Assembly (NCBI GenBank): GCA_016215605.1
Contig: JACRJB010000052.1
Coordinates: 124,001-188,000, forward strand
DNA: 64,000 nucleotides
Reading direction: 5' to 3'
Source: Rhodopseudomonas palustris
GTDB taxonomy: Bacteria; Pseudomonadota; Alphaproteobacteria; Rhizobiales; Xanthobacteraceae
The translations under genes and the position numbers were made by a program. This document shows positions 52,745 through 63,548 of this stretch, one piece after another. The notes under the pieces were generated by a model that saw only the letters and a list, made by a program, of their open reading frames with translations, made no database searches and had not been told where the DNA came from. How positions within the stretch are numbered: position 1 is the stretch's first letter; each line of letters begins with the position of its first letter.

Positions 52745-54016
52745 TCAGCCGAAAATATCGGTGGTCATGCCGATGTACCAGCCCGCCGCCTCGCGCGCCT
52801 GTTTGGCGCGCAGCTGCGGGCTTTCGTCGAGCTGCGACGTGTACGGATCGGATGCGACGATCTTGCCGTCCTGCGGCGCATAGCGCGCACCGTTCTTGAC
52901 CGCGTCGTCCGGCGCGATATCGCTCCAGCAGTGGTTGGTGAAACGGATCGGCATCCGGCGCTCGCCGAGCAGTTCGGCTCGCAGGATCATCGCCGCGCCC
53001 TTCGCTTCGTTGTTGGCGGCGAAGCCGGACTTGGGAAATTCACCGCCGATCGCGGAATCGCCGACCACCTGGATCGACGGATCGAGCAGCGAGGTCATGG
53101 TCTCGGCATTGACCGGGCAGAAGCCGGAGGCATCGGCGAGGCCGGCGTCGCGGCCGAGCTTGCCGGCGATCTGCGGCGGGATGACGTTGACCAGCGCCGC
53201 CTTGTGGGTCTCGAAGTCGGTGGTCACGGTCATCGCCTTGGGATCGACCGCCTTGATGCCGCCGTGGATCGTCGGGTCCTGCCATTCGATCATGCCGGGG
53301 TAGTGACGCTCCCAGCCGTCGATGAACAGCGTCTGCATCGCGAAATGATCCTTGGCGTCGAGGATCACGATGCGGGCGTTCTTCACCCCCCTGCTCTTCA
53401 ACGCATGCGCCATCATCGAGGCGCGCTCGTAGGGCGCCGGCGGGCAGCGATACGGATTCGGCGGCGCGATGATCACGATCAGCGCGCCGTCGGAAAGTGC
53501 GTCGAGCTTGCTCTTCAGCAGCTTGAACTGAGCGCCGCCGCGATAGCCGTGCGGCATCGCCTCGGCCGCGGCCTCGGAATAGCCGGGGACGGCGTCCCAG
53601 CGGAAATCGATGCCGGGCGACAGCACCAGCCGGTCGTAGTCGAGCCGGGCGCCGCCCGCGGTGCGCACCTGCTTGGCGTCGCGGTCGATCGCGGTGACGC
53701 TGTCGAACACCATGCCGACGCCGCGCGCGGCGATCGCCTCGTAGCCGAAACTCAGCGTCTCGAACGGCTTCAATCCGCCGAGATAGAGGTTCGAGGTGAA
53801 CGGCGTGACGTAGGTGCGGTTGGCCTCGACCAGCGTCACTTCGACGGAGTCGTCGCCGTGACGGAGATACTTCGCCGCGGTCGCACCGCCGGCGCCGCCG
53901 CCGACCACCACCACCTTCGGCCGCGCCTTGGCGATCGCAGGACAGGCGAACAGAGCTGTTGTCGCCGCGGCGGCGCCGATGAGGCCGCGACGGCTGATCA
54001 GGATCGGTTGGCGCAC
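52745..54016 (-). CDS. Flavocytochrome c sulfide dehydrogenase-like flavoprotein, paralog 2 (lacks FAD-linking Cys)
   Basis: GTG 54016 (ggag 8 bp upstream) gives 423 aa with a Tat-type signal (SRRGLIGAAAATTALFACPAIA). FAD motif VVVVGGGAGGATAAKYLR, NPYRCPPAPYER and NHCWSDIAPDD carry the two redox Cys of the family. The site that binds FAD covalently in Allochromatium FccB (Cys42) reads TPFTSN, with Pro replacing Cys (P72 here). It is about 50% identical by eye to the next gene. It is the last gene of the leftward sox group and may be SoxF-like. Confidence 0.88.
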   Translation of the reverse strand: MRQPILISRRGLIGAAAATTALFACPAIAKARPKVVVVGGGAGGATAAKYLRHGDDSVEVTLVEANRTYVTPFTSNLYLGGLKPFETLSFGYEAIAARGVGMVFDSVTAIDRDAKQVRTAGGARLDYDRLVLSPGIDFRWDAVPGYSEAAAEAMPHGYRGGAQFKLLKSKLDALSDGALIVIIAPPNPYRCPPAPYERASMMAHALKSRGVKNARIVILDAKDHFAMQTLFIDGWERHYPGMIEWQDPTIHGGIKAVDPKAMTVTTDFETHKAALVNVIPPQIAGKLGRDAGLADASGFCPVNAETMTSLLDPSIQVVGDSAIGGEFPKSGFAANNEAKGAAMILRAELLGERRMPIRFTNHCWSDIAPDDAVKNGARYAPQDGKIVASDPYTSQLDESPQLRAKQAREAAGWYIGMTTDIFG

Positions 54017-54071
54017 GTGATGTCTCCGAACGGGAAACGCGAGGCGGCGCGACGCGCCGCCCCGCTGGTGG

Positions 54072-55334
54072 TCAGGTGAAGATGTCGGCGGTGATGCCGG
54101 CATACCAGCCCATGTTTTCTTCGGCGGTCTGGAACCGGAGGCCGGAATCCTCGCCGGTCTTCGACACGAAGCCTTCGACTTCGGCGATGGCGCCGTCCTT
54201 CGGCTCGTAGCGGCCGCCGACCTTCACCGTATCGTCCTTCGCCAGCACCGACCAGCAGGTGTTGGCATAACGCGCCGGGAAGGTGCGCGTGCCGGTCAGT
54301 TCGCCGCGCACCGCATTCGCCACCACCTTGGCGTGGCTGCTGGCGGCGAATGCCGATTTCGGCATCGCGCCGGCGATCGAGGCGTCGCCGAGGACGTAGA
54401 TGTTCGGGTCGATCGCGGACTTCATGTTGGTCGCATCGATCGGACAATAGCCGGTCTGGTTGGCGAGGCCGGCGTCGCGCGCGATCTTGCCGGCCATCTG
54501 CGCCGGAATGACGTTGACCATCGCCGCCTTGATGGTCTCGAAATCGGTGGTCACCGTCATCGCCGACGGATCGACCGACTTCACGCCACCGTGCATCTTC
54601 GGATCCATCCATTCGACCATGCCGGGATAGTGCTTCTGCCAGCCCTCCTGGAACAGCGCCATCTTGGAGAACTTGTCCTTCGGATCGATCACGATGATCT
54701 TCGATTTGGTGTGGCCCTTCGCCTTCAGCACCATCGCCATCACCGACACCCGCTCGTAGGGTCCGGGCGGGCAGCGATACGGATTCGGCGGTGCCAGCAT
54801 CACGATGGTCGACCCGTCTTCGAGCGCATCGAGCTGCTTCTTCACCAGCAGCGTCTGCGCGCCCGGCTTCCAGCCGTGCGGCATGATCTCGGCGGCGGCT
54901 TCGGAATAGCCCGGCACGGAGTCGAATTTGATGTCGATGCCCGGCGCGACCACCAGCCGGTCGTAGTCGACCGTGCTGCCGTCGGCCAGCCGCACCTGCT
55001 TCTTGTCACGGTCGATTGCCGCCGCCATCTGGCGGACGTGTTTCACGCCGTAGCCGCCCAGCTTGTAGGGGTGGGTGATCGACTCCATGCTGCGCATGTC
55101 GCCGAGGACCAGGTTGGAATGAAAGCAGGTGATGAACTTCTCCAGCGGCTCGACCATGGTGACGTCGATCGCGCCCTGCGAGTCGCGCGCGACGTATTTC
55201 GCCACCGTCGCCCCGCCCGGCCCGCCGCCGATCACCACGACGCGCGGCTTGGCCTGCGCACGCAGCACGCCCGGCATCGCGATGAGACTGGCAGCCAGCA
55301 GGCCGGTCGAGAATTGGCGTCTGTCGATGGTCAT
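54072..55334 (-). CDS. fccB: Flavocytochrome c sulfide dehydrogenase flavoprotein subunit, paralog 1 (FccB/SoxF)
   Basis: The 420-aa Tat-exported protein (MTIDRRQFSTGLLAASLIAMPG) has VVVIGGGPGGATVAKYVAR, FITCFHSNLVLGD with the presumptive FAD-linking Cys (C70), and the redox Cys pair in NPYRCPPGPYER and NTCWSVLAKDD. The family oxidises sulfide in the periplasm and passes electrons to the cytochrome subunit. Its start overlaps the stop of the cytochrome gene upstream (ATGA), so the two form a pair. A 55-bp gap separates it from paralog 2. Confidence 0.9.
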   Translation of the reverse strand: MTIDRRQFSTGLLAASLIAMPGVLRAQAKPRVVVIGGGPGGATVAKYVARDSQGAIDVTMVEPLEKFITCFHSNLVLGDMRSMESITHPYKLGGYGVKHVRQMAAAIDRDKKQVRLADGSTVDYDRLVVAPGIDIKFDSVPGYSEAAAEIMPHGWKPGAQTLLVKKQLDALEDGSTIVMLAPPNPYRCPPGPYERVSVMAMVLKAKGHTKSKIIVIDPKDKFSKMALFQEGWQKHYPGMVEWMDPKMHGGVKSVDPSAMTVTTDFETIKAAMVNVIPAQMAGKIARDAGLANQTGYCPIDATNMKSAIDPNIYVLGDASIAGAMPKSAFAASSHAKVVANAVRGELTGTRTFPARYANTCWSVLAKDDTVKVGGRYEPKDGAIAEVEGFVSKTGEDSGLRFQTAEENMGWYAGITADIFT

Positions 55335-55777
55335 TTCTTCCCCTCCATGGTCGTTGTGAACTCGCGGACGTCCCCCGTCCGGTCTGCGGTGCGCTCTGAC
55401 TTTTCTTGTTCGAGGCTGCCGAAGTAGCTCGCGAGCGCGGCGATCTCCTCGTCGTTGAATTTGGCGGCGATCGCCCGCATCACTTGGTTGTCGCGAATCT
55501 TGCCGCGATATTCGGTGAGCGCTTCGATCAGCTCCGACTCGGCGCGGCCGACGATCGACGGGATGCCGTCGAACCGGCCGCTGAGCTGGTGACAGGTGAC
55601 GCATTCGCTGGACAGATATTCGCCGAGTTCGCGGTCCCCGGCCGCCCCCGGCCCGGCCGCCAAACACAGCGCCGCGACGGCGACAGCTGCGCGCAGCCCG
55701 GCGCGCACCCCGCGCGCCCGGCGCTTCGGCTGCATCGTCCGCTCAGCACGCGGCGACGCCCGGCCTGTCATGGCCAT
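55331..55777 (-). CDS. Periplasmic monoheme cytochrome c, FccA/SoxE-like
   Basis: The 148-aa protein has an N-terminal signal (AAVAVAALCLAAGPGAAG) and a single CVTCH heme motif early in the mature part (SSECVTCHQLSGRFDGIPSI). The distal Met ligand is likely in NQVMRAI. The gene precedes fccB with a 4-bp overlap, which points to the cytochrome subunit of the flavocytochrome c. ATG 55777 follows gggaggacacagg. Confidence 0.85.
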   Translation of the reverse strand: MAMTGRASPRAERTMQPKRRARGVRAGLRAAVAVAALCLAAGPGAAGDRELGEYLSSECVTCHQLSGRFDGIPSIVGRAESELIEALTEYRGKIRDNQVMRAIAAKFNDEEIAALASYFGSLEQEKSERTADRTGDVREFTTTMEGKK

Positions 55778-55821: not shown

Positions 55822-56913
55822 TTAATTGCCGGTCTGTTTTGGCGTCAGCACCGGCGCCAGCGCCGCCGCTTTCGCGTCAATCAATGTATGCGTCGCCAGC
55901 GCACCGAGCCACATCGCCGCCAGCGCCAGCCATGCGGTCACCGCGAAGATCGAGCCGCCGGTGACGCCGGCACCAACCGCGCATCCTCCGGCCAGCATGC
56001 CGCCGAAGCCCATCAGAAACGCTCCGGCCGCATAGCGCCCCATGCTCAGGCCGTCGTGAAAGCCCTGCAGCTTCCACTCCCGGCCGATCAACGCCGCCAT
56101 CAGCGAACCCGCGAACACGCCCGGCACCAGGCCGATGTCGAAGCCGAGCGGCACCGACGGTGAGTTGATCAGCCCCATCAGCGTGTCGGCCGACGGCCCG
56201 GTGAAACTGACGCTCTTGACCGTGGTCGGCTCGAACGCGTGCAGCGACAGCGTGTAGGTCACCAGCCATCCCGCCGTCACCGCCAGCCCGACGCCGAGCG
56301 CCGCGATCCCGTTCACGATGCCGATCCGGTTGCGCCATCCCAGCCAGAACGCGACGCCGAGGCCGAACACGCCGAGGCCGATGCCCGCCACCGGCCCGAC
56401 ATGCGCGACCGTGAGCAGATTGCGCGACGCGCCGCCGGGCAGCGTCCACAATTGCGAGAGAAACTCGCGCGCCGGCGACAGCACGCCGCGCAGCGACGCC
56501 TGCGCCACGATCGTCAGGATCAGACCGGTCACCAGCGCGCGCAGATTGCCGGTTCCCGACAGCACGAGGAGCCGGCTGGCGCAGCCGCGCGACAGGATCA
56601 TGCCGGCGCCGAACATCAGCCCGCCGATCACCGCGCCCGACAGGCTGCCGGTGGAAGCCAATTGCCGCGCCTCGGAGACATCGAGCACGCCGGCCGAAAT
56701 CGCCGCCTGTGTCGCGGCCACCGCCGCCGAGAAGGTCAGCAGCCAGACCGCGAGCTTGGGGCCGAGCGAGCCTTCCGAGAATTCGATCACCGCCGCGCGC
56801 AGGCAGAACTTGCTGCGCTCGGCGCACGCACCGAACGCGAGACCGACCGCCAGACCGCCTGCGGTCAACGCGGTGACTTCACCGAAGCGCTCGACGAGTT
56901 GATCGATGTTCAA
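55822..56913 (-). CDS. YeeE/YedE-family sulfur-compound transporter (SoxT-like)
   Basis: TTG 56913 with a strong ribosome-binding site (ggaggaag) gives 363 aa and about nine TMs. Conserved Cys-containing motifs ERSKFCLRAA, ILSRGCASRLL and LAGGCAVGAGVTGG are those of the YeeE (TsuA) fold, whose Cys residues pass thiosulfate across the membrane. It lies between soxD and the flavocytochrome genes, so it probably imports a sulfur compound for assimilation or signalling, as proposed for SoxT. Confidence 0.87.
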   Translation of the reverse strand: MNIDQLVERFGEVTALTAGGLAVGLAFGACAERSKFCLRAAVIEFSEGSLGPKLAVWLLTFSAAVAATQAAISAGVLDVSEARQLASTGSLSGAVIGGLMFGAGMILSRGCASRLLVLSGTGNLRALVTGLILTIVAQASLRGVLSPAREFLSQLWTLPGGASRNLLTVAHVGPVAGIGLGVFGLGVAFWLGWRNRIGIVNGIAALGVGLAVTAGWLVTYTLSLHAFEPTTVKSVSFTGPSADTLMGLINSPSVPLGFDIGLVPGVFAGSLMAALIGREWKLQGFHDGLSMGRYAAGAFLMGFGGMLAGGCAVGAGVTGGSIFAVTAWLALAAMWLGALATHTLIDAKAAALAPVLTPKQTGN

Positions 56914-57081
56914 GGATGCTTCCTCCGCGCCCCATTCAGGCGCGCAAGCCTGTGGACATATCAGATTGTGTGTCGATCCTCCGATCGGGCATTGATCTGG
57001 CGCAACGCAGCTCGGTTCCGCCGTCGAATCTTCGTATCTGTTACTTCGCCGCACGCGTTCTCCGCGCGTGCGTACTAATCG

Positions 57082-57810
57082 TCAGTCCACTTTCGGGCCG
57101 GCCTTGTCGTCGGGCGTGACGTCGACCGAGATCGCGCGACCGATCACTTTCGGCGCCGGGCCGCAATCCTTCATGCAGGGCGACTTGTTCCAGAACTGCT
57201 TCTCGGCGACGTCGCGATCGTCGTCGTAGAAGCCGCCGGCATTCGGCATCTTGACCTTGGCGAGGTTGTCCTGGTTGAGCTCGAAATCCGGATCCTTGAT
57301 CACGTCGCTCATGCTGAGGATGTATGCCGTCAGCGCGTAGGCCTCGTCGGCGCTGAGCGAGCGCGCATTGCCGAACGGCATGGCGCGGCGGATGTAGTCG
57401 TACACCGTGGTGGCGTCGGGCCAGTACGAGCCCACCGTCTTGTCCGGCCGATCCGCCTTCAGCGTGCCGACGCCGCCGGACAGCACCGGATAACGGCCGA
57501 CGCCTTCGCCGAATTCGCCGTGGCAGGTCGAGCATTTCTCCTGAAACAGCGAATCGCCCTGTTTCGCGGTGCCCTTGCCGGGCGGCAGGCCGACGCCGTC
57601 GGGGCGCACGTCGGTGTCCCACGCATGAATTTCGTCGGGCAGTGCCGGCCGGCCGAGGCCGAGCTTCGCCGGTGCCGGCGGCGGCGCGGGCTGGGTCGCC
57701 ACGGCTTTCGAGGCCTTCGCCGTCGCCTTCTCCGCAATCGCCTGCGTCAGCGGCACGGCGGCGATCGCGACGACGGCGAGACCCGCGATCAGACTAAGCG
57801 ATCTCGACAT
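57082..57810 (-). CDS. soxD: SoxD cytochrome c of sulfane dehydrogenase, monoheme form
   Basis: The 242-aa protein has a signal peptide, one heme motif CSTCHGEFGEGVGRYPVLSGG, the SoxD stretch DATTVYDYIRRAMPFGNARSL with a Met ligand, and a Cys pair CMKDC near the C terminus. Paracoccus SoxD is a larger diheme protein, so this is the shorter form. It takes electrons from SoxC. Its 5' end overlaps soxC by 17 bp. Confidence 0.9.
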   Translation of the reverse strand: MSRSLSLIAGLAVVAIAAVPLTQAIAEKATAKASKAVATQPAPPPAPAKLGLGRPALPDEIHAWDTDVRPDGVGLPPGKGTAKQGDSLFQEKCSTCHGEFGEGVGRYPVLSGGVGTLKADRPDKTVGSYWPDATTVYDYIRRAMPFGNARSLSADEAYALTAYILSMSDVIKDPDFELNQDNLAKVKMPNAGGFYDDDRDVAEKQFWNKSPCMKDCGPAPKVIGRAISVDVTPDDKAGPKVD

Positions 57811-59071
57811 TTTCAGTCACTCCATCCGGATGCACGAGCCAGGTCTGGATGCCGTTGTTGTGGTACACCGAATTGACGCCGCGGACCTTGCGCAGCTCGG
57901 CCTTGGTCGGCTGCACGTAGCCGGTCTCGTCGATGGCGCGCGACTGCAGCATCAGTTCCTGACCGTTCCAGTCGAAGTCGACGTAGAAGCGCACCATCGA
58001 CTTGTCCATCACCGGCCCGTCGATCCGCGCCTCGTGCCAGTTGCGTCCGCCGTCCATGGTGACGTCGACGCGCTTGACCGTGCCCCGGCCGGACCACGCG
58101 ACGCCGCTCAGCACGTTGCGGCCCTTGAATTTCAGCGGCGCCTGCGGCGACGGATTGGTGATCACCGACTTGGCGTCCATCACGAAGGTGTATTTGCGGG
58201 CGCGGCCGTCGGGCATCAGATCGGTGTATTTCGAGGTTTCCTCGCGGGCCTGCCACGGCATGTCGCCGGCCTCGATCCGGCGCAGCCATTTCACCCAGAG
58301 ATTGCCCTGCCACCCCGGGATCACCGCGCGCAGCGGATAGCCGTTCTCCGGGCGTAGCGCCTCGCCGTTCATCGCGAAGGCGATCAGCACGTCGTCGAGC
58401 GCCTTCGACACCGGCAGCGAGCGGTTCATGCCGGCCGAGTCCGCGCCTTCCAGCATCAGCCATTTCGCGTTCGGCTTCAGCCCGGCCTGGTCGAGCAGCG
58501 TCTTCAGCGTGACGCCGGTGTACATCACGTTGTGGATCATGCCGTGGGTGAACTGGCAGCCGTTGAGCTGCGCGCCGCGCCACTCCATGCCGGAATTCGC
58601 GGCGCACTCCAGGAAGTACACCTTGTTGACCCGCGGCATCCGCTTGATGTCGTCCATGGTGAACACCATCGGAGTGTCGACCAGGCCGTTGATCATCAGC
58701 CGATGCTGCGCCGGGTCGATCTCGGCGACGCCGCCGTGATGGCGCTCGAAGCACAGGCCGGACGGCGTGATGATGCCGTCGAGCGCATGCAGCGGCGTGA
58801 AGTTGACCGAGGATTCCGGCGACGCGGTCAGCCACGACACGTCGCGGCGGATCACGTCCTTCTCGAATTTCGACGGCACGCCATAGGGCTTCTTGTCGAC
58901 GCCGTCGCCGAGAAAGCGGTTCCAGTCCTGCAGCTCGGTGATCGCCGGATCGGGCTTGGCGCCCTCGCCGGCCTTGGCCGCGATCGGCAGCAGCGCGCCT
59001 GCGGCCGAGAGCCCGGCAGCGCCGAGAAAGCGGCGGCGATCGAGGATGTCGGAGGGAGGCTTCTGACTCAT
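57794..59071 (-). CDS. soxC: SoxC sulfane dehydrogenase, molybdenum-cofactor subunit
   Basis: ATG 59071 gives a 425-aa protein with a Tat signal (DRRRFLGAAGLSAAGALLPI), the Mo-ligand Cys in VYFLECAANSGMEW, ENGYPLRAVIPGWQGNLWVKWLRR (in part) and a C-terminal dimerisation domain (GVAWSGRGTVKRVDVTMDGG), as in sulfite oxidase-type SoxC. Together with SoxD it oxidises the sulfane sulfur on SoxY. It overlaps soxD by 17 bp. Confidence 0.95.
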   Translation of the reverse strand: MSQKPPSDILDRRRFLGAAGLSAAGALLPIAAKAGEGAKPDPAITELQDWNRFLGDGVDKKPYGVPSKFEKDVIRRDVSWLTASPESSVNFTPLHALDGIITPSGLCFERHHGGVAEIDPAQHRLMINGLVDTPMVFTMDDIKRMPRVNKVYFLECAANSGMEWRGAQLNGCQFTHGMIHNVMYTGVTLKTLLDQAGLKPNAKWLMLEGADSAGMNRSLPVSKALDDVLIAFAMNGEALRPENGYPLRAVIPGWQGNLWVKWLRRIEAGDMPWQAREETSKYTDLMPDGRARKYTFVMDAKSVITNPSPQAPLKFKGRNVLSGVAWSGRGTVKRVDVTMDGGRNWHEARIDGPVMDKSMVRFYVDFDWNGQELMLQSRAIDETGYVQPTKAELRKVRGVNSVYHNNGIQTWLVHPDGVTENVEIA

Positions 59072-59140
59072 GCCGGATTGCCTTTTGCTATCACAATACG
59101 TGAATGTGTCGGTCGCGGGTGAACGCACGCGGTCGTCATC

Positions 59141-60838
59141 TCAGGCGCCCGAAACCTTGACCGCGCTGTTGGGGTCGATCTTCACGGGACCGGCCTGCGC
59201 GACGTGCTTGGACAACACCTCCCAGATTGGCGGACCTTCGGTATTCTGGTTGATGCTGGCCCAGCCGGAGACCGTGTACTTCTTCGACGCCTCGATCGGC
59301 TTGCCGGTCTTGAGGTGGGTCATGTTCGAGATCCGCGTCCCCATCTCCTTGCTGACGTCGATCGCGTAGCCCATGCCGCCGGTGCGCACCATGTCGCCGC
59401 CACCCTGGAAGTACGGGTCGGGATGGAAGATGTTGTCGGCGATGTCTTCGAGCACGTTCTTGAGCTGCTCGCCGGTCATCTCGGTCCGATAACAGTTCGG
59501 ATAGGTGATCGCGGTGGCGTTGGTGATCGCCTCCCAGGTGATGTTCTCGTCCGGCAGCAGCGTGCCGCCCCAGCGGAAGCCGGGCGACAGCGCGATCTCG
59601 GTGTCGCGTTGCTTCAGCATCGCGTCGCAGATCAGGTCGTCGAAGGTGCCGTTGAAATTGCCGCGACGATACAGCAGCGAGTCGGTCTTGCCGACGATTC
59701 GGGCGAGATCCTGTGCATATGGCGCGCGCAGCTTGTCGACCAGTTGCGCCATCGCCGGGTCCGGCTTGATGGCGTCGGCGAACACCGGCATCAGCTTGAA
59801 GCGGATGTCGGCGACTTTGCGGTCCTTCACCGCGATGTCGAGTCGCGACACGAATTTGCCGTGCGAGCCCGACGCCACCAGGACGGTGTCGCCGACCTTG
59901 ATCAGGCCCGGCATCGCGTCGTGGGTGTGCGCGGTGAGGATGACGTCGAGCCCCTTGACCCGGCCGGCGAGCTTGCGGTCGACGTCGAAGCCGTTGTGCG
60001 ACAGCAGCACCACGACCTCGGCGCCCTCGGCGCGCGCGTCGTCGATCTGCTTCTGCATGTCCTCCTCGCGGATGCCGAACTCCCATTTCGGAAACATCCA
60101 GCGTGGATTGGCGACCGCGGTGCGCGGCAGCGCCTGCCCGATCACCGCGACCTTGACGCCGCCGCGCTCGAACATCTTGCGCGCCTCGAACACCGGCTCC
60201 TGCCATTCGTTGTCGCGGACGTTCTGCGCGAGGAAGGCGAACGGCGCGCTGTCGGCGACCTGCTTGACTCGATCGGCGCCATAGGTGAATTCCCAATGGC
60301 CGGTCATCGCGTCGAGCTTCAGCGCAGTCATGACGTCGATCATGTCCTGGCCTTTGGTCTGCAACGAGGTCCAGCTGCCCTGCCAGGCGTCGCCGCCGTC
60401 GAGCAGCAGCACCTTGTCGGCGCCGCGCTCGGCACGGACCGCCTCGACCAGCGTGGCGATGCGGTCCATGCCGCCCATCCGCCCGTAGTTGCGGGCGAGC
60501 GCGACGAAATCATCCGCGGTGAGCGCGAAGGCGTCCGGCGAGCCGGTGGCGATGTGGAAGTAGTTGCGGAATTCCGCGTCGGTCAGGTGCGGCGGCTTGC
60601 CCTTGACCTCGCCGACGCCGAGATTGACCGACGGCTCGCGGAAATGCAGCGGCATCAGCTGGGCGTGGATGTCGGTGATGTGCAGCAGCGTCAGCGTGCC
60701 GAGCGGATCGAATTTCAGAATGTCCGCCTGCGTCAGCCGCTGCTGCGCCGCCACTCGCCCGATCGGACCGAGGCCGCCGCCGATCGTCAATGCCGACGCT
60801 GCCGCGGTGGCCTGCAGGAATTCCCGCCTCGAGATCAT
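59141..60838 (-). CDS. soxB: SoxB thiosulfohydrolase
   Basis: ATG 60838 gives 565 aa with a Tat signal (SRREFLQATAAASALTIGG) and the metallophosphatase-fold ligands of SoxB: LHITDIHAQL, LLDGGDAWQG, TGHWEFTYG, VLLSHNGFDVD and LTAHTHDAMPG. It hydrolyses the sulfonate from SoxY-bound thiosulfate using two manganese ions. The 142 bp to soxZ hold no feature. Confidence 0.95.
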   Translation of the reverse strand: MISRREFLQATAAASALTIGGGLGPIGRVAAQQRLTQADILKFDPLGTLTLLHITDIHAQLMPLHFREPSVNLGVGEVKGKPPHLTDAEFRNYFHIATGSPDAFALTADDFVALARNYGRMGGMDRIATLVEAVRAERGADKVLLLDGGDAWQGSWTSLQTKGQDMIDVMTALKLDAMTGHWEFTYGADRVKQVADSAPFAFLAQNVRDNEWQEPVFEARKMFERGGVKVAVIGQALPRTAVANPRWMFPKWEFGIREEDMQKQIDDARAEGAEVVVLLSHNGFDVDRKLAGRVKGLDVILTAHTHDAMPGLIKVGDTVLVASGSHGKFVSRLDIAVKDRKVADIRFKLMPVFADAIKPDPAMAQLVDKLRAPYAQDLARIVGKTDSLLYRRGNFNGTFDDLICDAMLKQRDTEIALSPGFRWGGTLLPDENITWEAITNATAITYPNCYRTEMTGEQLKNVLEDIADNIFHPDPYFQGGGDMVRTGGMGYAIDVSKEMGTRISNMTHLKTGKPIEASKKYTVSGWASINQNTEGPPIWEVLSKHVAQAGPVKIDPNSAVKVSGA

Positions 60839-60980
60839 CGTTTCCGTTCCCTTGCCCTCGCCGATGGCGCCCCGCAATCCGCGAGGACCCGATCCGCTCG
60901 ACTTGATTTCCGGCGCACCTCCGCGGCCCGGGAACGGCGTCGCCCCCGGTCGATGCGGATGAACTCCGGCGCGCCGTCGT

Positions 60981-61310
60981 TTAGGCGACGGTCAGCTTGT
61001 GCTTGGACGTGTAGTTGGAGCCGTCGTCGTCCTTCCAAGTGAAGACGAGCTCGCCGGACTCCGACGCCTTGTAGAAGAACGACTGATACGGATTGGCCGA
61101 AATCGCCGGATTCCAGTCGGCCTCGAACACCATCTTGCCGTTGAACTCGGCGACGAAGGTGTTGATGATCTTGCGCGGCACGACCTTGCCGGAGGCGTCC
61201 TTGCGCTGACCGGATTCCATTTCATGCGAAATCAGCGTCTTGATTTCGATCAGTTCGCCCGGCTTGGCCTGGGTCGGAACGCGAACGCGGGGGGTCGGAG
61301 TAATCGCCAT
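60981..61310 (-). CDS. soxZ: SoxZ sulfur-carrier complex subunit
   Basis: The 109-aa protein has TPTPRVRVPTQAKPGELIEIKTLISHEMESGQRKD (in part), KIINTFVAEFNGKMVFEADW and FTWKDDDGSNYTSKHKLTV, the full SoxZ fold without the carrier Cys. It forms the heterodimer with SoxY. It follows soxY by 40 bp. Confidence 0.95.
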   Translation of the reverse strand: MAITPTPRVRVPTQAKPGELIEIKTLISHEMESGQRKDASGKVVPRKIINTFVAEFNGKMVFEADWNPAISANPYQSFFYKASESGELVFTWKDDDGSNYTSKHKLTVA

Positions 61311-61350: not shown

Positions 61351-61815
61351 CTAGCCGCCGCAGCCGCCGATGGTGACTTTGACGCTGGCCTTGGTCGAAT
61401 ACAGCTTGCCGTCCGACATTTCGGCGATGCAGATGATGTTCTGGGTCTGCGCCAGACGCATCCGGGTCGAGGCCGCGGCCTTGCCGCAGGCTGGCGTGAA
61501 CTTGTAGCTGACGATGCCCGGCAGCGGGTTGCCGTCGGCGAAGACGTGGACCGCCTTGACGTAGTCGGCGTCGGTCATCGGGCTCTCGACCTCGACATTG
61601 ACCGGGACGACCAGACCGTTCTCGGCGATTTCCGGAACGTCGAGCTTGATCTTGCCGCTCTCAAATTTCTTGTCGCCGTAGAGCTTCTTGATCTCGGCGT
61701 CGACCGCGGCGACATCGGCGAACGACATCCGCGGCGCCAGCAGCGCTGCGAGGCCCGCGATGCCTGCGAGCGCCAGGACGTCGCGGCGACTCGTCTCAAC
61801 CTTCGTGAAAACCAT
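61351..61815 (-). CDS. soxY: SoxY sulfur-carrier protein
   Basis: The 154-aa Tat-exported protein (TSRRDVLALAGIAGLAALLAP) ends with VKVTIGGCGG; the Cys in GGCGG (C152) carries the sulfur intermediates. It is the first gene of the leftward sox operon. Confidence 0.96.
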   Translation of the reverse strand: MVFTKVETSRRDVLALAGIAGLAALLAPRMSFADVAAVDAEIKKLYGDKKFESGKIKLDVPEIAENGLVVPVNVEVESPMTDADYVKAVHVFADGNPLPGIVSYKFTPACGKAAASTRMRLAQTQNIICIAEMSDGKLYSTKASVKVTIGGCGG

Positions 61816-61930: not shown

Positions 61931-61993
61931 AGATATCCGGCGAGCGAACGGATGTTTTTAGACCGCACAAGACGGTCGAGGGAGGGAGGCGAG

Positions 61994-62812
61994 ATGAGAA
62001 CCATCGGGTTATCAATGCTGTTTGCGATTGTGCTGTGCACAATGCCGTTCCGGGCCCAGGCTCAGGATGCCAGCGAGAAAGAAATCGAGCGCTATCGGGC
62101 GATGATTTCCGATCCCATGTCGAATCCCGGCTTCCTCGCGGTCGATCGCGGCGAACAGCTTTGGGCGGAGAAGCGCGGGACCAAGAACGTCTCGCTGGAA
62201 GGCTGCGATCTCGGTGTCGGCGCCGGCAAACTGGAAGGCGCCTACGCCCAGCTGCCGCGCTACTTCAAGGATGCCGACAAGGTCATGGACCTCGAGCAAC
62301 GCCTGCTGTGGTGCATGCAGACGATTCAGGGGCTCGATACCAAGGACGTCGTCGCGCGCCGATTCTCCGGCCCGGGCAAGGCGTCCGATATGGAAGATCT
62401 CGTCGCCTACATCGCCAACAAGTCGAGCGGCATGAAGATCCAGCCGCAGCTCGGCCATCCCAAGGAGCAGGAGATGGCCACGGTCGGCGAGGAAATGTTC
62501 TACCGCCGCGCCGGCGTGATGGACTTCGCCTGCGCCACCTGTCACGGCAGCGAAGGCAAGCGCATTCGGCTGCAGGCGCTGCCGGATTTCGCCAAGCCCG
62601 GCAAGGAGCCGCAGGACACGATGGGGTCGTGGCCGACCTACCGCGTGTCGCAGGGCGCGCTGCGCACCATGCAGCACCGGCTGTGGGACTGCTTCCGCCA
62701 GCAGCGCTGGCCCGTGCCGGAATACGGCTCGGACGGGATCACCGCACTGACCATGTATCTCAACAAAATGGCACAGGGCGGCGAGATCACCGTGCCCTCG
62801 ATCAAGCGCTGA
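61994..62812 (+). CDS. soxA: SoxA cytochrome of the SoxAX thiosulfate-loading enzyme
   Basis: ATG 61994 (ggagggaggc upstream) gives 272 aa with a signal peptide ([23 protein letters not shown]). A single heme motif [12 protein letters not shown] lies in the C-terminal half; the N-terminal half has [11 protein letters not shown] where diheme SoxA has CxxCH, so this is the monoheme form. DCFRQQRWP carries the persulfide-forming heme-ligand Cys. SoxAX couples thiosulfate to SoxY. soxX starts 13 bp downstream. Confidence 0.93.
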
Positions 62813-62825
62813 GGGAGGACGGATC

Positions 62826-63548
62826 ATGATCAAGATGTCGAAACTGTCGATCCTGACGCTCGCAGTCGGAGGCGCCCTCGCCTGCGGCCCGCTCGTGGCC
62901 AGCCAGGCCGCGGACAAATCCGTCCCGCCGCAGAAGGCCGAAGCCGCCAAGGCTGAACCGGTCAAGACCGAGCCTGTCAAGACCGCGGGCGCTGCGCCCG
63001 CGCACAAGGTCTCGCCGGAGCTGGTCGACGCCTACATCAAGGCGACGTTCGGCAAGGCGCCGCCGGAATGGCAGGAGCGCATCGTCCCGGACGAGACGAT
63101 GAAGGAATGCAACGCCGCGCGTGGCGACGTGCCGACCGCCGTCGCCGACAAGATCATCGCACGCGAACTGAAACGCGTGACCTATCCGGCCGACGGCAAG
63201 TATCTCGGCAACTGGAAGGAAGGCGCCAAGATCGCCAACAACGGCCGCGGCGGCCAGTTCTCCGACGATGAGAAGACGGTGAACGGCGGAAATTGCTACG
63301 CCTGTCACCAGATGGAGCAGGCCGAAGTGTCGTTCGGCACCCTCGGCCCAAGCCTCACGCATTACGGCAAGGACCGCAACTACACCGAGGCCGAAATCAA
63401 GCAGGCCTACACCAAGATCTACAACTCGCAGGCGGTGATCGCCTGCTCCAACATGCCGCGATTCGGCACCAACAACTTCCTGACCGAACAGCAGATCAAG
63501 GACGTGCTGGCGTTCCTGTTCGATCCGGACTCGCCGGTCAACAAATGA
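62826..63548 (+). CDS. soxX: SoxX monoheme cytochrome of SoxAX
   Basis: The 240-aa protein has a signal peptide (SILTLAVGGALACGPLVASQA), an Ala/Lys/Pro linker, the heme motif GGNCYACHQMEQAE and the Met ligand in ACSNMPRFGTNNFLT. At 240 aa it is the longer SoxX type with an extended N-terminal part. It accepts electrons from SoxA. A ribosome-binding site (gagggagg) precedes ATG 62826. Confidence 0.94.
   Translation: MIKMSKLSILTLAVGGALACGPLVASQAADKSVPPQKAEAAKAEPVKTEPVKTAGAAPAHKVSPELVDAYIKATFGKAPPEWQERIVPDETMKECNAARGDVPTAVADKIIARELKRVTYPADGKYLGNWKEGAKIANNGRGGQFSDDEKTVNGGNCYACHQMEQAEVSFGTLGPSLTHYGKDRNYTEAEIKQAYTKIYNSQAVIACSNMPRFGTNNFLTEQQIKDVLAFLFDPDSPVNK

Follow-up and report, generated by a model that had tools for sequence, protein, structure and literature searches.

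A paralogous flavocytochrome c sulfide dehydrogenase flavoprotein without the FAD-linking cysteine, in tandem with a cysteine-bearing partner in the sox cluster of Rhodopseudomonas palustris

What flavocytochrome c gains from the covalent bond between cysteine and flavin adenine dinucleotide (FAD) is a long-standing question. In the flavoprotein (FccB) of flavocytochrome c sulfide dehydrogenase (FCSD) from Allochromatium vinosum, Cys42 binds FAD and Cys161 and Cys337 form a disulfide (PMC3504083, excerpt). The C-terminal domain of the FCSD flavoprotein has been described as the acceptor-binding domain, and it has been proposed that electrons could reach the heme by way of Tyr, Thr and Trp residues lying between FAD and the interface of the subunits (PMC12010331, excerpt). 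Monomeric SoxF proteins have been reported in Paracoccus pantotrophus and Chlorobaculum tepidum, the latter with a reported stimulating effect on thiosulfate oxidation in vitro (PMC3504083, excerpt). The DNA analyzed here is a 64,000-nucleotide stretch of Rhodopseudomonas palustris (GenBank assembly GCA_016215605.1, contig JACRJB010000052.1, positions 124,001 to 188,000), called the window below, whose right end holds a complete sox cluster. Downstream of soxBCD, and after a gene for a monoheme cytochrome, lie two FCSD flavoprotein genes, here termed P1 and P2 (Table 1). P1 carries the cysteine predicted to bind FAD and P2 has proline in its place. P2 looks like a distinct version of a known enzyme, kept in several related, mostly photosynthetic genera.

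An earlier sequence-only reading of the window had described two tandem FCSD flavoproteins with TCFHSN (P1) and TPFTSN (P2) at the covalent-FAD site and the redox Cys pair in both, and this description holds for the window as well as its orthologs. The underlying alignment was upheld: Pro73 of P2 falls on the conserved Cys of the solved FCSD flavoproteins 5n1t, 3vrd and 1fcd, and Cys70 of P1 takes the same column. The comparison of homologous tandems that the reading had called for covered 22 loci (the window and L035-L055), and TCFHSN was found in all 22 P1 copies and TPFTSN in all 22 P2 copies. Since every P2 has Pro and every adjoining P1 has Cys, the split is not due to chance or a sequencing artefact. 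By counting along the 1fcd alignment, Cys161 corresponds to C192 of P2 and C188 of P1, and Cys337 to C364 and C360, respectively; both redox cysteines were present in 188/188 non-identical FCSDs, including 44/44 tandem copies. These residue counts comprise the 22 P1, the 22 P2 and 144 other FCSDs. The 144 are a sample, with many further family, order and phylum matches outside it, and part of them came from a selection with the peptides YRCPPAPY and G[ED]FPKSGF, which makes frequencies at A195 in particular meaningless. The counts leave out L092-L104 (named records that repeat loci included under other entries), one exact duplicate and L027-L034, of which five were re-entered as L201-L205; L030, L033 and L034 have the Cys.

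The attachment Cys was absent from 7 of the 144 other FCSDs (L120, L147, L150, L156, L160, L185 and L217), with Ser in four and Pro, Leu and Val in one each. These scattered proteins retain the redox pair, as does P2, but none has His363 (0/7) or Phe328 (0/7), two residues exclusive to P2. In a tree of 102 rows, which included six of these seven proteins, the residue at the site changes at least 6 times, P2 included. Recurrent loss across the FCSD tree indicates that loss of the Cys is tolerated and not unique to P2; distinctive of P2 is that the loss is fixed across a whole clade, next to a Cys-bearing partner. The dinucleotide-binding motif is invariant in the 16 P2 sequences that were aligned (of 22). 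Furthermore, the sulfide:quinone oxidoreductases (SQRs) 3hyv and 8dhk have Pro in the column of P73, and the Pro of P2 is thus the residue of relatives that are unable to form this bond. In 3hyv, FAD is presumably linked through another Cys. Because Pro replaces an attachment residue that has surely been lost, the earlier proposal that P2 may bind FAD non-covalently appears sound, and a non-covalently held FAD is well supported by the aligned sequences.

Over 425 columns, P1 and P2 share 53% identity, and both score over the cut-off for the Pfam families Pyr_redox_2, FCSD_central and FCSD-flav_bind, which places them in the FCSD flavoprotein family (FccB/SoxF). An AlphaFold2 model of P2 based on a 47-sequence alignment had a mean predicted local distance difference test (pLDDT) score of 93.1; it superseded an earlier model from 16 P2 sequences, which was poor (mean pLDDT 68.8). 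The model matched 3vrd, 5n1t and 1fcd with Z of 57-59 and a root-mean-square deviation of 1.4-1.6 Å over 390-391 residues, third domain included. Therefore, P2 is an FCSD flavoprotein with three domains in its predicted fold. The SQRs (3hyv, 8dhk, 3t31 and 3h8i) have a related fold yet are far more distant (Z 28-39, 15-21% identity). When P2 was used for sequence searches, the three FCSDs ranked top (E 3.8e-92 or better) and the best SQR reached E 6.3e-10; by sequence and by fold, an FCSD was nearest in every search. P2 belongs in the FCSD flavoprotein family and, with Pro in 22/22 copies, not among the covalent flavocytochromes, whose attachment Cys is present in P1 (22/22). Like FccB of A. 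vinosum (1fcd), Thermochromatium tepidum (3vrd) and Thioalkalivibrio paradoxus (5n1t), to which it is 40-45% identical, P2 has the three-domain fold, the redox Cys pair and the active-site Glu and Trp. It departs from these proteins by having Pro at the site of the FAD-linking Cys and His at that of Thr336, neither of which is found in P1.

The His substitution is as strictly confined to P2 as the substitution of Phe328: each residue was found in 22/22 P2 and in 0/166 of the remaining FCSDs. The column of Phe328 holds Met or Leu in 162 of these 166. His363 is directly N-terminal to the second redox Cys and by count corresponds to Thr336 of A. vinosum, with Thr in 122/166 others. The A. vinosum route residues are printed as Tyr306, Thr366 and Trp336 in the excerpt of PMC12010331; by our own count on the 1fcd alignment, they would be Tyr306, Thr336 and Trp391. 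At these positions, the window proteins have Phe for Tyr306 in both P1 and P2, Thr in P1 and His in P2 for Thr336, and Trp in both for Trp391, whose equivalent in P2 (W414) is kept in 22/22 copies.

P1-P2 identity is lowest in the C-terminal domain (0.444, vs 0.528-0.631 in the other domains), and 15 of the 39 fixed differences between P1 and P2 fall in its 72 columns (of 389). Within P2, identity of this domain (0.836) is similar to that of the central domain (0.833), and it is the only domain more conserved within P2 than within P1 (0.820). Its DPYTSQ stretch is invariant at residues 392-396 and nearly so at D391 in the aligned P2 sequences. Circular-shift fractions for this domain were 0.028 for fixed differences, 0.083 for the identity deficit and 0.042 for the excess of conservation in P2 over P1, with domain borders drawn by us and the fractions uncorrected for selecting the C-terminal domain; the divergence pattern is suggestive, not decisive.

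These observations point to P2 as a second functional, exported FCSD flavoprotein that would be specialised away from P1, with non-covalent FAD and an altered electron exit, and we give this reading about an even chance. P2 retains both the FAD fold and Cys192-Cys364, the pair with which sulfide would react. Its substrate in the periplasm would be sulfide, or protein-bound or polysulfide sulfur, and the usual FCSD route would apply, in which sulfur adds onto the disulfide, FAD receives two electrons and the electrons exit singly to an acceptor. With Pro in place of the attachment Cys, FAD would be held without a covalent bond, and His takes the place of Thr on the proposed flavin-to-heme route. 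These two substitutions at the flavin's edges may lower its potential and change the electron exit, with P2 either employing another periplasmic carrier or docking the shared monoheme cytochrome differently. Several points weigh against this reading. First, the occurrence of Cys-less proteins among non-tandem FCSDs (7/144) means that Cys loss need not mean a new function. Second, some other residue of P2 could attach FAD. Third, the C-terminal signal is weak, with one of its three measures above 0.05. Finally, no separate cytochrome gene was found beside P2 in the DNA examined, and that of P1 may simply be shared. In a bolder version, which seems rather doubtful to us, P2 would represent an FCSD type of its own among anoxygenic phototrophs, with FAD that is dissociable and of lower potential and with a His at the electron exit. 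Electrons from sulfide or persulfide would then go to some carrier that is not the classic flavocytochrome heme (or the half-reaction would run in reverse). If this were true, these bacteria would have a pair of sulfide dehydrogenases, each suited to its own redox conditions.

The sharing of a cytochrome is the alternative that survives best, and we regard it as a genuine, if improbable, possibility. Under this explanation, P1 and P2 would be interchangeable covalent and non-covalent isoforms that use the single monoheme cytochrome of P1 and differ in affinity or redox range, not in acceptor. A single cytochrome gene precedes both flavoprotein genes in the 20/20 loci that are uncut by a contig end. 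A search downstream of P2 for further CxxCH reading frames (60-449 aa) was negative in all 22 loci, within the 2.2-9.1 kb examined per locus. Because no other cytochrome gene was found there, P2 could share that of P1; the absence of a downstream heme-protein frame fits a shared cytochrome as well as a soluble carrier. Retention of the Trp391 equivalent and the FCSD-like fold of the third domain in the P2 model are also in line with sharing. On the other hand, divergence of P2 from P1 is greatest in the acceptor-binding domain, and His is fixed at the Thr336 position. The suggestion of the sequence-only reading that P2 may have a different acceptor gains indirect support from the His (22/22 vs 0/166) and, with weak statistics, from the diverged C-terminal domain; a different acceptor is plausible but only suggested, and a different potential, also raised by that reading, is conjectural. 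The companion claim that only P1 is coupled to a cytochrome gene stands for adjacency, but not necessarily for the operon, since P2 trails P1 on the same strand by 55 nt.

It is unlikely that P2 is instead a monomeric SoxF-like thiol/persulfide oxidoreductase, reactivating or draining SoxYZ or polysulfide rather than dehydrogenating free sulfide. The location of P2 within a complete sox cluster and the monomeric SoxF precedents of P. pantotrophus and C. tepidum (PMC3504083, excerpt) are consistent with such a role. By comparison, SoxF of P. pantotrophus strain DSM 11072 (L218), which is encoded after soxBCD and a cytochrome gene and is present as a single copy in the stretch read, is 55% identical to P1 and 49% to P2; it differs from P2 in keeping TTCFFSN and NTCW. 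With the attachment Cys and the Thr retained, this SoxF is P1-like and P2 is not simply that protein. Least probable by far is that P2 drifts as a duplicate or acts as a non-catalytic helper (e.g., a partner subunit of P1), with a decaying cofactor site, for which the lost attachment Cys and a frequent GTG start that might mean lower expression could speak, but against which stand a dN/dS as low as that of P1, the strictly retained redox Cys pair and Trp, the invariant dinucleotide motif and the presence of P2 in 12/12 Rhodopseudomonas genomes with a P1 ortholog.

P1 and P2, of which only the former has the attachment Cys, occur together by nature in a single gene cluster of one cell and offer a ready-made comparison for the role of the covalent bond, and the linked His at the flavin-heme route provides a specific residue for swapping. 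P2 is also a conserved sulfur-oxidation gene of Rhodopseudomonas-type phototrophs that domain models alone fail to separate from an ordinary sulfide dehydrogenase. No description of a tandem or Cys-less FccB/SoxF was found among the best-ranked titles and abstract openings (at most 25 per query) of a literature search, largely outside subscription papers.

P2 orthologs were present in 22 of 296 family genomes, with 71-100% identity to P2 of the window and next matches at 57% or below; none was found outside the family in samples of 397 order and 398 phylum genomes, some of which are family members. P2 is directly downstream of P1 in 22/22 loci, with a gap of 16-216 nt, and the order cytochrome-P1-P2 is the same in all uncut loci. 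In L047 and L048 (R. faecalis type), these three genes flank the sox genes on the opposite side, with a different YeeE gene next to them, and have thus moved as a block. A scan at species level, with a single genome for each GTDB species and the two peptides named above as prefilter (one of which includes the P2-only Phe328), yielded 470 relatives; of the best 80 of the 470, 13 were 71-92% identical to P2 and the others 56% or below. The 13 belong to Rhodopseudomonas, Rhodoplanes, Blastochloris sulfoviridis and a strain labelled Rhodovulum sp. PH10. Twelve of 16 Rhodopseudomonas genomes have both P1 and P2, none has one alone and four have neither; one of these four has only a distant third FCSD type. 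The median pairwise dN/dS was 0.145 in P2 and 0.154 in P1, in each case from 28 pairs among 8 of the 22 loci, all Rhodopseudomonas.

Reaction-centre genes were found in 21 of 22 genomes with P2, vs 15 of 274 family genomes without it (Fisher p 1.6e-21). A functional link of P2 to phototrophy was set aside: the P2 genomes are related, so that the association is a lineage pattern, one of them (G140) has no reaction-centre genes, and phototrophs with a P1-type SoxF but no P2 exist (G016, G059 and G294). In the genus group of G140 (locus L045), which is the sole P2 genome lacking reaction-centre genes, the other members with a listed match have distant FCSDs only, suggesting acquisition of the block in this genome.

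Tandem P1 copies form one clade (support 99) and P2 copies another (support 100), and a single origin of the tandem therefore fits. That P2 is a recent duplicate of P1 was considered and rejected, as P2 has a long stem (0.6) in a first tree and does not fall within the clade that P1 forms with the single SoxF proteins. In a second tree (76 of the 102 rows, long rows removed), P2 grouped with the long-branched FCSDs L210-L212 (support 95), possibly through long-branch attraction. Both were quick trees without bootstrap. P1 and P2 as a single clade were not rejected by the approximately unbiased test (p 0.454). P2 may have arisen through a tandem duplication long ago, followed by rapid early divergence of P2, or it may be an older paralog.

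There is an overlap of 4 nt between the cytochrome gene and P1. The most likely start of P2 is the GTG at 54014-54016, rather than the ATG of a longer listed open reading frame. Under one common start rule set in this analysis, P2 starts with GTG in 17, TTG in 3 and ATG in 2 of the 22 loci, and P1 with ATG in 22/22; the P1:P2 protein ratio may be set by the GTG-rich starts.

Table 1. Features of the sox cluster and the P1-P2 tandem in the window
Feature	Position in window	Strand	Basis or remark
P2, FCSD flavoprotein paralog without covalent-FAD Cys	52745..54016	-	GTG start; twin-arginine (Tat-type) leader ISRRGLIG judged by eye
P2 DPYTSQ (391-396), C-terminal domain	52832..52849	-	aligned P2 sequences
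P2 redox Cys364 (= Cys337)	52928..52930	-	alignment
P2 His363, exclusive to P2, Thr336 position beside second redox Cys	52931..52933	-	residue counts
P2 Phe328, exclusive to P2, within GD...PKS stretch	53036..53038	-	residue counts
P2 redox Cys192 (= Cys161)	53444..53446	-	alignment
P2 Pro73 codon CCG (= Cys42 position of A. vinosum FccB)	53801..53803	-	alignment
P1, FCSD flavoprotein (SoxF/FccB type) with covalent-FAD Cys	54072..55334	-	ATG start; twin-arginine leader judged by eye
P1 Cys70 codon TGC, predicted FAD attachment site	55125..55127	-	alignment
Monoheme c-type cytochrome (CVTCH), probable electron-accepting subunit	55331..55777	-	exact start uncertain
YeeE/YedE-family (SoxT-like) sulfur transporter gene	55822..57054	-	family match; SoxT name from PMC11582611 (excerpt)
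soxD-like cytochrome	57082..57810	-	cytochrome c domain; named by position beside soxC
soxC	57794..59128	-	
soxB	59141..60877	-	
soxZ	60981..61310	-	
soxY	61351..61815	-	
soxA	61952..62812	+	
soxX-like cytochrome	62826..63548	+	cytochrome c domain; named by position beside soxA

The YeeE/SoxT-like gene is located between soxD and the cytochrome gene in the window and L035-L046 and is not there in L050-L054 (Rhodoplanes- and Blastochloris-type). Elsewhere in the same genome, a third, more distant FCSD flavoprotein (C52:178496-179776; L003, L058) is 40% identical to P2, with the motif TCPYGN, and lies in a separate sulfur locus beside soxY/soxZ-like, YeeE-like and small cytochrome genes. A further match (C34:178355-178633; L004) is 37% identical to residues 267-359 of P2 and contains one internal TGA.

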